From Nitrososphaeraceae archaeon (GTDB taxonomy: Archaea; Thermoproteota; Nitrososphaeria; Nitrososphaerales; Nitrososphaeraceae), in assembly GCA_021325295.1 (NCBI GenBank), contig JAJPHM010000025.1, forward strand, positions 1 to 64,000: a stretch of DNA of 64,000 nt, in the 5' to 3' direction. The notes under the pieces were generated by a model. That model was not told the DNA's origin. It made no database searches and saw only the letters and a program-made list of their open reading frames with translations. A program made the translations under genes and the position numbers. Below, piece by piece: positions 7,632 to 61,780 of this stretch (its first letter is position 1; each line of letters opens with the position of its first letter).

Positions 7632-9050
7632 ATGCGGATTGTAATGAAGTTTGGTGGAACGGCTGTAGATTCAGGGGAGAAGGTCAGGCATGTTGCAGGA
7701 CTGGTAAAGCAGTACAGCAGTAAAGGCAATGAAATTGTTTGCGTAGTTTCTGCTGTGCGCGGCATGACTGACGGTCTATTGTCAATATCCGATAGCGTCA
7801 GGCGCGGCGACAGAAGGTCAATTGAGGAATTTGTTCAAAAGGCAGGAAAAATCCACCTTGACATTGTCAATGAAGCCATCTCTGACAGTGGCATAAGAGA
7901 GCTAGCTGCTTCTTCGGTCAGAAAAGTTGTCGGTGAACTCCAAGATATTCTTGGGGGAATAGTGCTTTTGGGTGAAGTTACGCCAAAATCGCTGGACTAC
8001 CTTGTGTCATTTGGCGAAAGGCTATCAGCCCCGATTGTTTCCTATGCTTTGCAAGATATTGGATTAAAGTCTGAGCACATGACAGGAAAGGAAGCTGGTA
8101 TCCTTACAGATTCTAACTTTGGCGAGGCGCGGCCGCTGATGGATACCACAAAGCTTCGAGTCAGCCACAAGCTTGAGCCCATGCTTAAGTCTGGCATGAT
8201 CCCGGTGGTGACAGGATTTATCGGCGGCGACCAGAATGGCAATACTACAAGCATAGGCAGAGGAGGTTCAGACTATACAGCAACCATTGTAGCTTCAAGC
8301 ATCAATGCTGACGAAGTCTGGCTCTGGAGCGATGTAGATGGGCTCATGACAGCTGACCCCAAGATTGTAAAGGATGCAAGGGTTCTCAATGAAGTCTCTT
8401 TTGCAGAGGCCATGGAAATGGCCCTGTTTGGGGCAAAATACATGCACCCCCGGGCCCTCGAGCCGGTGATGGACACCAAGATTCCCATAAGGATCCGCAA
8501 TACCTTCAACATCAAACACCAGGGGACGGTCATAACACAGAGCCCAAGCAAAGAGTCACAAAAGATCGTCAAGTCGGTGAGTGCAATCAGACACACTGCT
8601 CTGATTGATGTCAGCGGTGGAGGGATGGTTGGGACGCCTGGAACTGCTGCCAAGATCTTTGATACTCTGGCCAGAAATAAAGTAAACATCATGATGATCT
8701 CTCAGAGCCCATCTGAATCCAGCATCTCGATGGTGTTGAGAAAATCCGACCTTGACAGGGCAATAAATACGCTCGAGCTTAACCTGCTTGGAAGAGTGAT
8801 CAAGCAGGTAAATGTAAACGAAGATGTGGCAGTCATCGCTGTAGTAGGATCCGGAATGCGGGGAATCAAGGGTGTGGCGGCAAAGGTCTTTGGGTCTGTA
8901 GCAAAGAAGGGAGTGAATGTAATAATGATCGCACAGGGCTCGTCTGAGCTGAACCTTGCTTTCGTGGTTAACGACAGTGACTGTCAGGATGCAGTGAGGG
9001 CCCTGCACGAAGAGTTTTCCCTAGGAAGAGCAGAGATGCAGGCACCATAA
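7632..9050 (+). CDS. Aspartate kinase with two C-terminal ACT domains
   Basis: Phosphorylates aspartate to 4-phosphoaspartate, the first step to threonine, methionine and lysine/diaminopimelate precursors. The 472-residue protein starts with KFGGTAV (residues 6-12), the conserved amino acid kinase signature; SFGERLSAP and GRGGSDYTA follow within the catalytic domain (to about 300). Two ACT regulatory domains are visible from about 320 (VSGGGMVGTPGTAAKIF) and 400 (VVGSGMRGIKGVAAKVF), so feedback inhibition by an amino acid is likely, though the effector cannot be read from sequence. ATG start at 7632. Cytoplasmic homo-oligomer. Confidence 0.93.
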   Translation: MRIVMKFGGTAVDSGEKVRHVAGLVKQYSSKGNEIVCVVSAVRGMTDGLLSISDSVRRGDRRSIEEFVQKAGKIHLDIVNEAISDSGIRELAASSVRKVVGELQDILGGIVLLGEVTPKSLDYLVSFGERLSAPIVSYALQDIGLKSEHMTGKEAGILTDSNFGEARPLMDTTKLRVSHKLEPMLKSGMIPVVTGFIGGDQNGNTTSIGRGGSDYTATIVASSINADEVWLWSDVDGLMTADPKIVKDARVLNEVSFAEAMEMALFGAKYMHPRALEPVMDTKIPIRIRNTFNIKHQGTVITQSPSKESQKIVKSVSAIRHTALIDVSGGGMVGTPGTAAKIFDTLARNKVNIMMISQSPSESSISMVLRKSDLDRAINTLELNLLGRVIKQVNVNEDVAVIAVVGSGMRGIKGVAAKVFGSVAKKGVNVIMIAQGSSELNLAFVVNDSDCQDAVRALHEEFSLGRAEMQAP

Positions 9051-20083: not shown

Positions 20084-20440
20084 TCAAGATACCTTCCCGT
20101 AGTCAGAAAAATAACATTTCGTTTTCAAATCTGCTTCAATTTCTTTTGCAGTCCCGAAATTTTCTGCCGATTCAGCGAATCAAGGATTTTTTTCTTCCGT
20201 CTCCAAGACAACGCTCTTTGCGTCTTTAGTCAGCTTTGTCATGTCTATCTTATCTTTGATTCGTTTGGATATTATGATACTTAACCCTGTCTTGCTCGGA
20301 AAGTCTCAGGTCTTCTATAAACCCCTTCTCAACAATGTCGCCAAAAAGGTATTCAGAGTGCAATTGTGCAATCATGAATTTCATACATTATGCCGATCTT
20401 TGAAACAAGCGCATAGATAGCAAAATATCTAGATTGATAA
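20084..20440 (-). pseudogene. Degenerate small coding region, frameshifted (tentative)
   Basis: No intact gene lies in this 357-bp gap, but the minus strand shows three consecutive protein-like pieces in different frames: MIAQLHSEYLFGDIVEKGF (start near 20373), then SKRIKDKIDMTKLTKDAKS, then ILDSLNRQKISGLQKKLKQI ending in TGA near 20124. The second change of frame coincides with a run of seven A. The pieces are charged and helical and would join into a protein of roughly 85 residues. This reading may be chance; the family is not recognised. Confidence 0.35.
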
Positions 20441-20986
20441 TTATTTTCTTGGCAGACCCAGGGTCTTTACATACTCTGAAGGAGACAGAAGAGGAATCCC
20501 GATTAACTTTGAAAGCTCATGCCTTTTGTCAATTATCCCTCTGTCTCCAGTCACAAACGCTCCCAAGTCACTGTTCATTTGTTTGGCATGCCTTGCTGCA
20601 GTCAAATGCATAATATCCAAGGTACGAAGGCCGGCTTGCATGCATACCATAATCGAGTCGGTAAAAATGCTGGGCATCGGGATATGGATATTTCCAAGTG
20701 CAAATGCTGTATCACCCCCAATATGAATAAAATTGATCTTCAATTCAAGAAGCGTCTGCAAAGCTTTGACGATAAAGATCTTCTTTTCCTGCATATTCCG
20801 GCCAATGTTGTGTTCGAAAAGACGTCCGGCAACCGCCGCAACCTCAAGAACCGTCAGGACAGACGTTTCAGCACGTATTTCGTTTTTTGCAAGGTTTGCA
20901 ACAATGGCGGCCGCGTCAGAATGGTACGGGTCATCATATTTGAGATATGATATGAATACATTTGTGTCCATGTAAAATTGGTGCAT
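20441..20986 (-). CDS. PIN-domain toxin (VapC-like)
   Basis: A 181-residue PIN-domain ribonuclease. Acidic active-site residues fit the family: D7 in FYMDTNVFISYL, a Glu in SVLTVLEVAAV, an Asp in RTLDIMHLTAARH and the terminal TGDRG. It is longer than the usual VapC (about 130) because of an inserted helical segment in the middle. The gene follows the RHH-type antitoxin gene by 21 bases on the same strand, giving a type II toxin-antitoxin pair. The toxin would cleave RNA (often tRNA) when released. Cytoplasmic. Confidence 0.85.
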   Translation of the reverse strand: MHQFYMDTNVFISYLKYDDPYHSDAAAIVANLAKNEIRAETSVLTVLEVAAVAGRLFEHNIGRNMQEKKIFIVKALQTLLELKINFIHIGGDTAFALGNIHIPMPSIFTDSIMVCMQAGLRTLDIMHLTAARHAKQMNSDLGAFVTGDRGIIDKRHELSKLIGIPLLSPSEYVKTLGLPRK

Positions 20987-21007
20987 TGAAACTACCTACA
21001 GGTCTAC

Positions 21008-21289
21008 CTACCTTTCTCTACCTTCGGCCACCATTTCCGCCGCAGTCTTATTTTTTCCACCAAATACCTTGGCAGCAAGCTCTCTGAACTGCCGATCAGA
21101 TAGAGTGTTGCTGGCCTGCTTTAAAACTGGCTCAAGATCAGCTGAGCCAAAAAGCTCGGGGTGCTCTTCTAGGTGATCATGCAGCATAATCCGGACAGCT
21201 TCGCTTTTGTTTTTAAACTTCTTTCGCTTGACCAGCCTATCCAGCTTTTGAATAACCTCACTATCTACTTTGACGTTGAGTACTTCCAT
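21008..21289 (-). CDS. Ribbon-helix-helix antitoxin (VapB/CopG-like)
   Basis: A 93-residue protein with an N-terminal ribbon-helix-helix DNA-binding domain: the strand EVLNVKVD, then helices SEVIQKLDRLVKRKKFKNKSEAVRIML. The C-terminal half is charged and likely wraps the PIN toxin encoded 21 bases downstream. ATG at 21287-21289. The promoter shows a TATA-like TTTATATTA about 25-35 bases upstream and an inverted repeat over the start codon, annotated separately, so the pair probably represses itself. Confidence 0.82.
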   Translation of the reverse strand: MEVLNVKVDSEVIQKLDRLVKRKKFKNKSEAVRIMLHDHLEEHPELFGSADLEPVLKQASNTLSDRQFRELAAKVFGGKNKTAAEMVAEGRER

Positions 21290-21304
21290 GGTAATACAAC
21301 CATG
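21287..21304 (-). promoter_or_regulatory. Inverted repeat over the antitoxin start codon
   Basis: CATGGT-AATACA-ACCATG is a perfect 6-bp inverted repeat with a 6-base spacer that includes the antitoxin ATG. Ribbon-helix-helix proteins bind such palindromes as dimers, so this is a plausible operator for autoregulation. A leaderless transcript would start within it. Confidence 0.5.
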
Positions 21305-21584
21305 TTACGTAATATAAAGGCGTTATGCACCAGATACTTCAAGACCAAATAAGCAATAAACTGCAGCCAGTCTGCTCATAGGTGATGCAATAATGATAAT
21401 TCCAGCTAATCACAGAAAGCTTTCCATTGTAGCCTTGTTTTCTAGACTAGAAAAATAGTTGCAAAAATGTTCTATTCTATCTTTTACTTGCTTGTTCCAC
21501 AAACAGAAAAACAGAACAGGTTCATTTTGATGAATCTAAAATTAGCTCCCTCATATCCAGTACGATGTTGCTATGATTATCATA

Positions 21585-21776
21585 CTTTCAATCTCCTCTG
21601 ATTGGAGATTTACGTTTTAACTAAATTTCCCTCGCAAATTCCCAGATGAGATAGCAGACACTTTCAATCTCCTCTGATTGGAGATTTACGTTTTAACTCA
21701 CTTCCATTTTACCTGTTTTGTCGCCTAGTGCTTTCCTTTCAATCTCCTCTGATTGGAAATTGATTTACGCTTTAAC
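21585..21776 (-). CRISPR. Three-repeat orphan CRISPR array
   Basis: Repeats of 37 bases lie at 21585-21621 and 21661-21697 (identical) and a diverged 41-base copy at 21736-21776. Spacers are 39 bases (21622-21660) and 38 bases (21698-21735). Read on the minus strand the repeat starts GTTAAAACG and ends ATTGAAAG, the common end of type I/III CRISPR repeats, with an internal short palindrome (CTCCAATCAGAGGAG). The diverged copy carries a 4-base insertion and several changes. No cas gene is in the window. The repeat unit is seen; functional state is not known. Confidence 0.82.
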
Positions 21777-22056
21777 AGCTATGGATCAATAAGCAGATCA
21801 GCAGAAAAATGCAGTTGAATATGCCAGCCCCTGGCGGCAAGGCAGTAAGCGAGTATGTCTGCTGCTGAAGCCTCTCATTGCTGCAAGTGGCACCTTTACT
21901 GACAGAATGTTTATTCGCCGAGTGAAAATACAACCACTACTATGGATGACCTGAGCATATGACGATACACTGATCTGCCAATGTTAAATTGACAACAATT
22001 CTTGTGCCATAGAGGAGCTCCGAACTACCCACTCTCTTTTTTCTTAATCTCTTTAC
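21777..22056. other. Region between the CRISPR repeats and the epimerase gene
   Basis: About 280 bases without an open frame of note. If the array is transcribed from the minus strand, this flank would be its leader. It is not especially AT-rich, with a GC-richer stretch (GCCCCTGGCGGCAAGGCAG) in the middle, so a typical leader is not obvious. Confidence 0.35.
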
Positions 22057-22491
22057 TCACTTTGCATTTTCGTGCAAAGTTTCTTTAGCCTCTGCTTTTG
22101 GAGGTGCCTCGCAGAATTCAGTCAGCACTCCATTTAACGATTTTGGGTGGATAAAGGTAATCCGTCTGCCATACGAACCGGACCGCAGGCCTCCAAGCAT
22201 CCTCATGCCACTCTGTTGGGCCCTTGCAACGTCTTTTTCAATGTCATCTGCAGTGATGGCGATATGGTGTATCCCTTCTCCTCTGTCTGTCAGGAATTTT
22301 TTTATCGGGCTGTCGTCTGCCGTTGGCTCCATCAGCTCTATTCTGGTGTCTTCAAGCTCCAGCATCGCAACCTTGACCTTTTCATGCGGCACCTCTTCTA
22401 TTTCCAGCCTGTCCACATTCAGGATCTTTTGGTAATTTTTCAAGGCCTCCTCTACGTTGTTTACTGCTATTGCGATATGGTCTACCCTCAT
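22057..22491 (-). CDS. mce: Methylmalonyl-CoA epimerase
   Basis: Interconverts (S)- and (R)-methylmalonyl-CoA in the 3-hydroxypropionate/4-hydroxybutyrate CO2-fixation cycle, just before the mutase encoded near 34 kb. The 144-residue glyoxalase/VOC-fold protein has the two beta-alpha-beta repeats: VDHIAIAVNNVEEALKNY at the N-terminus and GIHHIAITADDIEKDV in the middle, with metal ligands His, His, and Glu (IELMEP and the terminal GVLTEFCE). It is transcribed alone, on the left of an accessory segment that now separates it from the mutase genes. Confidence 0.93.
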   Translation of the reverse strand: MRVDHIAIAVNNVEEALKNYQKILNVDRLEIEEVPHEKVKVAMLELEDTRIELMEPTADDSPIKKFLTDRGEGIHHIAITADDIEKDVARAQQSGMRMLGGLRSGSYGRRITFIHPKSLNGVLTEFCEAPPKAEAKETLHENAK

Positions 22492-22672
22492 CTTCTCTAT
22501 CCTGACGGTTGAATGGTTGCCTGGTTTATTTTAATTTCTCGTTGACACGACAATCTTCTGGACAGATAATACTGGAAAATCTACAACGTTTTGGCTGGAT
22601 CCAGAGCTGGAGTTGCCTCAACGGGAGCCGGAATTTATATTGTCATCCTGCAGATCAAGTATAGCTGGTCCG

Positions 22673-23231: not shown

Positions 23232-24730
23232 TCAGCACACCGTCAGATACTGCCACATTGGAATAAACACATTGGGTTCTTGGATATCCATATAGTCCTT
23301 CGTAATTACAATTGATAGCGGTGGCTTTACCATTGAATTGAAATCCTCAAGCCCCTGCAAACCCCTTATTTGTTCCCGATATTTTACTTCAACCGGCAAT
23401 GACTTGTTGAATAGCTCGATGATAAAATCGACTTCATATTTTTCTCTCCAGTACATTGCCTGGAGGTTGTATGAAGGATCAAAGTCCAGTCGCAGTCTCC
23501 TGCTGTGATCGGCCGAAACAGTTTCAGCTACCTTGCCCATTTCATCGGCAATTGTTAACGTCTGATCGTCCAGTAATGCACACGATGCATTTCTTATGCC
23601 GACGTCATTTACATAGACCTTCTTTTCCCGCCTGATTCGCTTTGCTCTGCTTTTTGAGTATGTTTCTGCTTCAGAGACAAGGAATGCGGACTTGAGCAGA
23701 TAGATGTATGTATTCAGAGTTTCCCGTTTCAGCCCCAGTGTCCTGGCAAGGTTAAAGCGGTTTACAACCTGAGACGACTCTTTGGCCAGCATGGCAAAAA
23801 GGCTCTCCAGTGCTACAGGGTCTCTGACCTTACCTGTTCTCATAATATCCTTGTATATGGTAAGATTGAGATAGTTTCTCAAGTTCTGAGTGCATTCACT
23901 TGTGTCGTCTATTTTTGCAATTTCAGGATAGCCTCCTTTTATGAGGTACTGGTTAAGATAGACCAGTATCTTGTCCTTAAGCGGCGCAAGGTCTTTTGCC
24001 ACAGCTTTTACACTGTCGTAAAATAGCCTTGGGTTATGTGCTTTGACAGCAGTCTGCAAAGCCTGCCGCATCGAAGAGTTTGCAGCGTTAATCGCGTCGG
24101 CGATGGAATCGCCTTCCCTGAACCTGATATATTCAGTGAATTTCATTGGCAGCACAATCTGCGGATTAATCCGGCCAACCAGTGCTTCGGATGTTCCCCG
24201 CAGGATGCTCAGGTTCGAAGAGCCAGAGACTATAAATTTTATCCTGTATCCTAGGTCGTACCACCTTTTCAGCATGTCTTCCCATCTGTGAACTGATTGA
24301 ATTTCGTCTAAAAAAAATATGCCGTTTCTTCAAGCTCGTCAAGCGGCCTTTTTGCTATGCTTGTAGAATAGATATCGAATATTTGCTTGGTTCTACCAAT
24401 AGTCACATTTAGGTACGGGTCATCCAGTGAAAGGTACATCAGGTTCTGGGGTTTTGTTTTGTGCAAAAGGCTTTGTACAAGTTGATAGAGCAGAGTTGTC
24501 TTACCCACCTGCCTTGGACCGACTATTGCAACGATTTTTTGGTTGTCCAGTTGATCGGCAAGCCGCTGGTAGTCATATCGTTTGAATCGTTTTAGTTTGA
24601 CATCAGGAATGGGTTTGCCAGTCCACCACGGATTGTATGTATAAAGGATTCTAAGCAGCTCGCTTTCCTGAGCATCTGCCTTTAAAGCATAGGTGCTGGT
24701 GTCAGGGCCGGCCAACAGACTAGATTGCAT
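23232..24730 (-). pseudogene. AAA+ ATPase (DUF4143-type), frameshifted in Walker B
   Basis: Two minus-strand frames together match a P-loop ATPase of the COG1373 (ATPase + DUF4143) family. The upstream piece (24308-24730) has GPRQVGKTT at residues 71-79 and stops right after TAYFF. The downstream piece (read to 23232) opens LDEIQSVHRWEDM and continues with sensor FIVSGSSN and the PD-(D/E)xK-like C-terminal EVDFII...PVEVKY. The break falls in a run of eight A (24310-24317) on the plus strand, at the Walker B motif; one more T on the coding strand would restore YFFLDEIQ. It may be a pseudogene, a slippery site or a sequence error. Such proteins often occur in genomic islands. Confidence 0.8.
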
Positions 24731-32959: not shown

Positions 32960-33652
32960 TTGCCAGTAGCCAATGTTTTTATGGATGAAGCAGGCGATTT
33001 GGGTTTTTCTTTTCGCTCATCGCAATCTTATGTCATTGGTTATGTCATAACTACCTCACATACCCCTCATTTTATCAGAAATAAGTGTTGTAGACTATTA
33101 CGCAAGGTGAACAGTCGACTCAAGAATAACAAAAAGATATCCGAGTTCAAGTTCTCTGTAGATTCAGACTATACACGATTAAAATTCTGTAATCTGATAA
33201 GCTCATTGGGTATAGATGCAGGCGTAATTGCGATAAGAAAGGATAGTGTTAAAGATGGCCTGAAAACGGAACCAAACATACTCTACAACTATCTTACTGT
33301 CCACCATGTCGTGCCAGTAATTATCAGAAATTATCTGAAGTCCACTATGCCAGTGAATAGGATCAGATTCAAGATAGATAAAAGCCTGTCAAGGGTTAAT
33401 CAAGACAAATTCAACTACTATTTTGAAAACGAAATTTCTTTTATAAGGCGGAGAGAAGGGTTCAAGGCTGATGTTTTGGCAGAGATCGACCATGAAAATT
33501 CTCACAATGATGTGTGTCTGCAAATTGCAGACTATATTGCTGGCTCTGTATTCCGACGGATAGAGCACTTGGACAGCAAGTTCTATGATATCATAAAAAA
33601 TAAAATTAAATACCGAGAGAAATGGGACTGGAATGAAAAATTTACTTGGTGA
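32960..33652 (+). CDS. DUF3800 domain protein (RNase H-like fold)
   Basis: A 230-residue protein starting at TTG 32960. The N-terminal strand VFMDEAGDLGFSF with its Asp-Glu and the C-terminal CLQIADYIAGSVFRR are the signature parts of DUF3800, a family predicted to have an RNase H-like fold with acidic active-site residues and often found in mobile or defence-related neighbourhoods. Other acidic residues lie in VLAEIDHENSHND. Enzymatic activity is inferred from fold only. Basic, AT-rich codons suggest a horizontally acquired gene. Confidence 0.8.
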   Translation: MPVANVFMDEAGDLGFSFRSSQSYVIGYVITTSHTPHFIRNKCCRLLRKVNSRLKNNKKISEFKFSVDSDYTRLKFCNLISSLGIDAGVIAIRKDSVKDGLKTEPNILYNYLTVHHVVPVIIRNYLKSTMPVNRIRFKIDKSLSRVNQDKFNYYFENEISFIRRREGFKADVLAEIDHENSHNDVCLQIADYIAGSVFRRIEHLDSKFYDIIKNKIKYREKWDWNEKFTW

Positions 33653-33915
33653 CTCTGGCCCTACTTGTCCCATCCCGTTCCACGGGCATCATTCGTTCGG
33701 GCTAGCTCCTACTGCGAGGCAGCAGGACTTATTCACCAAAAGAAAATTGAAGCACTAGTTATATAACCTTTGAGGAAGATGGCTCCCTTAATACAGGTCA
33801 CCTTATGTCACTTTAAGTATCATTCATAGCTCATGAGGCCGCTTTTTGCACTTCAATGGTAGGTCTGCAGTCCTTTGGTGACCCAGACGTGTTCAATGTT
33901 TTTAGCTAGCAGCAT

Positions 33916-61653: not shown

Positions 61654-61780
61654 GCCGGGGTCGCCTAGCCCGGAAGGGCGCAAGCCTGGAAAACCTGTAG
61701 TGGAGTGTAGATACATTTTGCAGTTTCCAGCAAGCTTGTGACCCGTGAGGGTCTCGAGGGTTCAAATCCCTCTCCCGGCG
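61654..61780 (+). tRNA. tRNA-Ser (anticodon GGA) with 41-base intron
   Basis: Acceptor stem GCCGGGG pairs with TCCCGGC (one G-T), discriminator G at 61780. The anticodon stem CAAGC/GCTTG holds the loop CTGGAAA (anticodon GGA at 61688-61690). The intron (61692-61732) lies at the canonical position after base 37; CTGGAAA in the loop pairs with TTTCCAG in the intron, giving a bulge-helix-bulge. A class II variable arm GACCCGTGAGGGTC and T arm GAGGG-TTCAAAT-CCCTC follow. TATA-like TTAATATACA lies about 40 bases upstream. Confidence 0.95.
61692..61732 (+). other. tRNA-Ser intron
   Basis: 41 bases between anticodon-loop bases 37 and 38. The intron contains the complement of the loop (TTTCCAG), needed for the archaeal splicing endonuclease fold. 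Confidence 0.88.

Follow-up and report, generated by a model that had tools for sequence, protein, structure and literature searches.

A three-repeat CRISPR array without cas genes in a Nitrososphaeraceae archaeon, a probable remnant of a replaced type I-B-like system

Stand-alone CRISPR arrays, lacking cas genes, occur in integrated elements of Thaumarchaeota, and the authors of that work favor an origin by loss of cas (PMC6563490). Those arrays hold 69 and 96 spacers, and their repeats are identical to the repeats of a host array accompanied by I-B cas genes. In a second arrangement, CreTA, a repeat or two stand apart from any array, and the first is the most diverged (PMC9458426). Solitary repeats are also known from viruses (PMC10651486).

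The small array described here, from a Nitrososphaeraceae archaeon (genome G000), is like the thaumarchaeal stand-alone arrays in having no cas genes but differs from them in that its own genome yielded no array of this repeat linked to cas. It resembles CreTA in the position of its altered repeat, but it shows no guide match near adjacent genes, it is not linked to a cas locus, and its repeats are not of the type resident in the genome. No description of the array was found in the literature searched, within which it appears to be new as a record and known as a kind.

The array and its surroundings

The array lies on the minus strand of the window, by which we mean the whole 64-kb stretch of DNA that was analyzed. 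Its trailer-most repeat, R1 (21585..21621), is an intact 37-nt copy that reads GTTAAAACGTAAATCTCCAATCAGAGGAGATTGAAAG on the minus strand, ends in ATTGAAAG, and is predicted to fold into a hairpin with a stem of 7 bp. R2 (21661..21697) is identical to R1. R3 (21736..21776), the leader-most survivor, is 41 nt long, with two substitutions and a 4-nt insertion that resembles a tandem duplication. Between the repeats lie spacers S1 (21622..21660, 39 nt) and S2 (21698..21735, 38 nt), giving start-to-start spacings of 76 and 75. Apart from the 4 additional nucleotides of R3, the repeats are direct and of one length, and the spacers are unique and similarly long, the makeup of an orphan array. Coordinates and lengths re-derived from the sequence bear out a preliminary description of the locus as two identical 37-nt repeats with spacers of 38-39 nt and an altered third copy, and the minus-strand repeat ends as reported there. 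That description also called the third repeat damaged. Altered it is, but the hairpin is not lost: since the predicted stem of R3 is 9 bp, compared with 7 bp in R1, the insertion evidently did not break it.

Beyond the 3' end of R1, the segment at 21547..21584 (minus strand) may be the remnant of a last spacer or plain flank; its seed match does not exceed those of shuffled sequences. No fourth copy of the repeat was detected in the window: the next-best local alignment scores 25, the same as the best in one shuffled window.

The locus had been presented as an orphan, and none of the ten window ORFs submitted to PADLOC proved to be a cas gene, while matches to Cas1 in the same genome lie on other contigs. 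The only cas-labeled PADLOC match among the ten is a weak, partial one to Csx3 (20 bits), within a broken AAA ATPase. An AAA/DUF4143 ATPase at 23232-24730 (minus strand) occupies two ORFs, apparently by breakage, both parts of which match the PADLOC candidate family PDC-S01. The toxin-antitoxin neighbors reported earlier are also present: an ORF resembling RHH/CopG antitoxins (21008..21289, minus strand), codirectional with the array, and one resembling PIN-domain toxins (20441..20986, minus strand). No link between this pair and the array beyond proximity emerged when guide seeds were compared with shuffled sequences.

The gene amoC lies near the array, and the organism is therefore an ammonia oxidizer. 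Together with asparagine synthase and methylmalonyl-CoA epimerase, it gives the array region a chromosomal look. In the comparison set, 47 genomes have a match to the epimerase gene, and a 37-nt repeat stands beside it at none of the 29 loci compared (over short flanks). Elsewhere in the window are an Rfam match to DUF3800-X RNA (33647-33738, minus strand; 56.3 bits) and a tRNA match extending over 127 bases (61654-61780), probably intron-bearing.

Repeat family, orientation, and leader end

The repeat was sought in 70 genomes of the family, including G000 itself, which is the sole representative of its genus in the set. With up to 3 mismatches allowed, the repeat pattern occurs in two of the 70, G000 and Nitrososphaera sp. 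L.E.AR.1 (G029), the latter having 14 copies with 3 mismatches. BLAST with the repeat uncovered a long array in G026, which we take to be Ca. N. gargensis. A covariance model trained on six copies from these three genomes (R1 among them) and applied with strict filters, at most 97 candidates being scored per genome, found matches in five of the 70 genomes: 4 places in G000, 37 in G026, 14 in G029, 2 in G042 (presumably N. viennensis), and 1 in G036, this last a 22-nt partial match. A scan of genome-collection contigs with the repeat pattern listed two contigs, both from G029; it is incomplete, as G026 is absent from it despite fitting the pattern. Because the repeat is exactly duplicated in the window, has copies in G029, and has a long array of its kind in G026, it is not a product of chance, and on these comparisons we take it to be a genuine CRISPR repeat.

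The preliminary description raised the prospect of a main array with the same repeat and cas genes. Sought in the same genome, none was found, but in relatives the family is indeed linked to cas. The arrays of G026 and G029 adjoin genes for Csa1, Cas1, Cas4, Cas3, Cas5, Cas7, and Cas6, with Cas8b called by PADLOC. Csa1 carries a type I-A label in NCBIfam, and because of the adjoining gene set, the systems are I-B-like with Csa1 added. Their 37-nt repeats belong to the same family as those of the window, with the same hairpin and handle, and differ from the window repeat at 3 (G029) and 5 (G026) positions. The start-to-start spacing in the two relatives is 70-79, compared to the 76 and 75 given above. 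The loci differ from the window array in size and equipment: G029 has 14 repeats, situated on two contig ends, and G026 has 37, both with a common leader and cas genes, whereas the array in the window is limited to three repeats and lacks both cas genes and a recognizable leader.

The leader and Csa1 are on the GTTAAAA side of the repeat in both G026 and G029, and for that reason the leader side of the window array is its high-coordinate side, in agreement with the orientation proposed earlier. The leaders of G026 and G029 resemble each other (local score of 54, reached by none of 200 shuffles). The corresponding flank in the window is similar to them only at the level of chance, its scores being reached by 70 and 31 of 200 shuffles. 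Nor is there a TATA-like box, as judged by a 7-of-8 match to a simple pattern (the archaeal consensus), within 280 nt upstream of R3; at least one such match lies upstream of each of the arrays or repeats of G026, G029, and contigs C22 and C29 of G000. A leader with a promoter, expected of a functional array, was thus not found by either comparison. Window positions 15-30 kb gave no protein match to the CRISPR loci of G026, G029, or G042, and no flanking genes in common with them emerged.

What abuts the leader side of R3 is a scrap of chromosomal gene (21774..21814, plus strand), sharing AAC with R3 at the junction. It is 87% identical over 45 alignment columns to a gene on contig C30 of the same genome (L041:9504-9460), with two 2-base gaps, both in the window copy. 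As a candidate for the lost leader, the match was rejected, since it is a fragment of a gene. The array has most likely been cut at its leader end. This bears on the earlier remark that decay on the leader side runs opposite to the usual pattern. The altered repeat does lie on the leader side, but the true leader end is gone and the altered repeat merely adjoins the break, so no unusual rule of decay is needed.

Cas modules in the genome and its relatives

One I-B locus was detected in G000, on contig C29, with genes for Cas6, Cas8b, Cas7, Cas5, Cas3, Cas4, and Cas1b. The contig begins 193 bases before cas6. The array of the locus is built on a 30-nt repeat present in 27 copies, of which the last is degenerate. 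Predicted folding gives the 30-nt repeat little structure, and it ends in the same 8-nt handle, ATTGAAAG, as the 37-nt repeat. Between cas4 and cas1b, the locus also contains a MazE-type antitoxin ORF paired with a PIN-domain ORF (L005:8867-9510) and another PIN ORF (8037-8456).

The genes that accompany the 37-nt repeat elsewhere were not detected in G000. Csa1 occurs in two of the 70 genomes, G026 and G029. Cas6 of the 37-nt type matched in three, full length in the same two genomes and as a weak, broken fragment in G049. Against the two Cas6 proteins of the 37-nt systems, the resident Cas6 yields only fragmentary matches (E-values of 0.012 and 0.025). All of these proteins match NCBIfam TIGR01877, however, so they are distant homologs; a close match to the 37-nt type, such as a functional array would call for, was not found in G000. 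Since the assembly, estimated as 99.7% complete, is in 79 contigs, a piece may be missing.

Contig C22 of G000 carries a solitary 37-nt repeat with 6 differences from that of the window; it may therefore derive from another array. A second Cas1, on contig C79, was considered as the missing partner of the window array and rejected: it is 34% identical to G026 Cas1 over 99 residues and lies just after an EF-2-like ORF. This stand-alone Cas1 (L006:12143-13270), directly downstream of that ORF, is possibly a casposon or the remnant of one; thaumarchaeal casposons favor the EF-2 gene as a target (PMC6563490).

Pairwise BLASTP comparisons divide the cas genes into two sets. Between G029 and G026, Cas6 (78%), Cas1 (81%), Cas4 (85%), and Csa1 (90%) are highly similar, but Cas8b and Cas5 show no match, and Cas7 and Cas3 are only 27% and 29% identical. 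Between G000 and G029, the relationship is reversed: identity is 54% for Cas8b, 72% for Cas7, 70% for Cas5, and 60% for Cas3, but 25% for Cas1 and 27% for Cas4, with no match for Cas6 at E<0.001. By these identities, Cas6 goes with the repeat and the effectors do not. It appears that one block, made up of the repeat, Cas6, and the adaptation genes, has been exchanged apart from the block of Cas8b-Cas7-Cas5-Cas3 (L043, L044, L005, and L063, from four related genomes).

G042 may preserve what such events leave behind. It has one full and one partial 37-nt repeat. About 110 bases after the partial repeat comes a cas6 with 65% identity to that of C29; the locus has an array with the 30-nt kind of repeat found on C29 but another effector set. 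On the opposite side of the partial repeat is an ATPase gene that is the flank of the G029 array at its trailer end. The second repeat lies between sequences that correspond to the two sides of the G029 locus, although part of one of these sequences is matched at the first G042 site as well; the two G029 contigs presumably join at the array. The two sites look like two cases of loss that left single repeats as scars. Beside the array end, a stretch of G042 (L063:8078-9650) is 92% identical to one of G029 (L045:472-2037), compared to about 80-83% for neighboring segments, which suggests local transfer linked to CRISPR.

Cas6 of the C29 type, taken as at least 57% identity over at least 212 residues, is found in four genomes: G000, G042, G040 (68%), and G028 (57% over 212 residues). 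Nine others have weaker or fragmentary matches. G040 and G028 possess this Cas6, but the covariance model, with the filters and the limit of 97 candidates per genome given above, found no 37-nt remnant in either.

Spacer origin and the fate of the array

The preliminary description had looked to viruses and plasmids as the source of the spacers. No convincing protospacer was found for S1 or S2 in phages, in plasmids, in IMG/VR (exact 19-20-mers), or in the 70 family genomes. BLAST against phages returned 14 and 22 records, respectively; among the matches listed, all have E-values of at least 0.5 and no alignment reaches 80% query coverage. Against plasmids, with E-values up to 1, there were no matches. 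The exact-word comparison with IMG/VR produced a single 20-nt match, rejected as a protospacer because of mismatches beyond the 20 nt and an ORF that looks like a CI-type repressor. Two back-translated spacer patterns gave 2 and 0 matches, and these too were rejected, both being one sequence with 24/39 positions identical and a frame that looks noncoding. In the family genomes, with up to 3 mismatches, the spacers match only their own locus; BLAST gave a weak match in G012 (E-value of 7e-4).

One seed match stands out. S1 matches 13 nt exactly (minus strand, L005:8930-8942) within the MazE-type antitoxin ORF of the resident cas locus. Shuffling gives a chance of 0.0007, a value that applies to one spacer and that 20-kb stretch and to a match picked post hoc after several guides and targets had been compared. 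Such a match would matter if the array gave rise to a crRNA-like guide for the repression of some host gene, as in CreTA or CreR, the target being perhaps this antitoxin or the neighboring PIN/RHH pair. The altered first repeat would then have its counterpart in psiR1 of CreTA (PMC9458426). We consider a regulator of this sort very unlikely. Across the genome, the S1 19-mer with up to 3 mismatches has 4 nonself matches compared to 2 for a reversed control; S1 and the antitoxin target are identical at just 23/39 positions overall; and the target is in the coding part of the gene, not the promoter. R3 does not flank S1, and the repeats are not those of the resident system. In CreTA, the seed is complementary to the promoter of the adjacent toxin gene and the unit is physically linked to its cognate cas locus. 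Here, seeds of the three guides show no clear excess near the PIN/RHH pair (21290-21584 and 20400-22600), the observed scores being reached by 8 to 81 of 100 shuffles, and the linkage is missing. In the specific version, the array has been kept because S1, its second guide, brings the resident I-B effector, by way of the common ATTGAAAG handle, to the MazE-type antitoxin gene that lies among the resident cas genes. This is slightly less credible still; if true, the old array would be bound up with the regulation of its successor system. A plain alternative is that S1 may have been acquired from a mobile toxin-antitoxin gene. Its plus-strand reading, NFPRKFPDEIAD, resembles the IPKEIAD motif of the antitoxin.

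Might the array still serve immunity, with the C29 system processing and using both spacers in trans? The shared handle would permit it, the effectors of G000 are 54-72% identical to those that stand beside 37-nt repeats in G029, all the Cas6 proteins fall in TIGR01877, and the hairpin is kept in all three repeats. But the resident Cas6 matches those of the 37-nt systems only in fragments, the resident repeat is 30 nt long and of weak structure, and the array has neither a recognizable leader nor a TATA-like box. A living array is improbable, if somewhat less so than a regulatory one. About as doubtful as the regulator is the idea that mini-array and solitary repeats came as cargo of an integrated element, as decoys like Racr or as viral mini-CRISPRs. 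In G000 and G042, solitary repeats do turn up in several places that are not linked, and viruses are known to carry such repeats. The core of the repeat, however, has no exact match in IMG/VR, the neighbors surveyed look chromosomal, and the resident system has repeats of another kind.

Very probably, then, the array is a truncated, leaderless, and inert remnant of a lost array of the type I-B-like 37-nt family, orphaned when the module comprising repeat, Cas6, and adaptation genes was replaced. In relatives, the 37-nt repeat stands with its own Cas6, Csa1, Cas1, and Cas4, a module that this lineage would have lost. The C29 locus has a 30-nt repeat and a Cas6, Cas4, and Cas1b that are far diverged, yet its effectors Cas8b, Cas7, Cas5, and Cas3 closely resemble those of the 37-nt system in G029. 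At the leader end, a recombination event would have fused the leader-most surviving repeat with part of a C30-type gene and so eliminated the leader and the promoter; the remnant, presumably neither transcribed nor functional, would then have accumulated neutral mutations. Some observations weigh against a remnant. The identity of R1 and R2, like the hairpin retained by R3, might point to selection or to a loss that happened recently. No protein match links the window neighborhood to the CRISPR loci of G026, G029, and G042, and against a simple rule of replacement, G040 and G028 have the C29-type Cas6 without a detected remnant.

If the array is a remnant, it raises the question of whether old spacers might be readable by a new Cas6. 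The replacement of a CRISPR module can be traced here within a small set of genomes (G000, G026, G029, and G042). Taken with the loci of related genomes, the remnant suggests that the parts of CRISPR systems in soil archaea are exchanged as separate blocks, leaving single repeats behind as scars.
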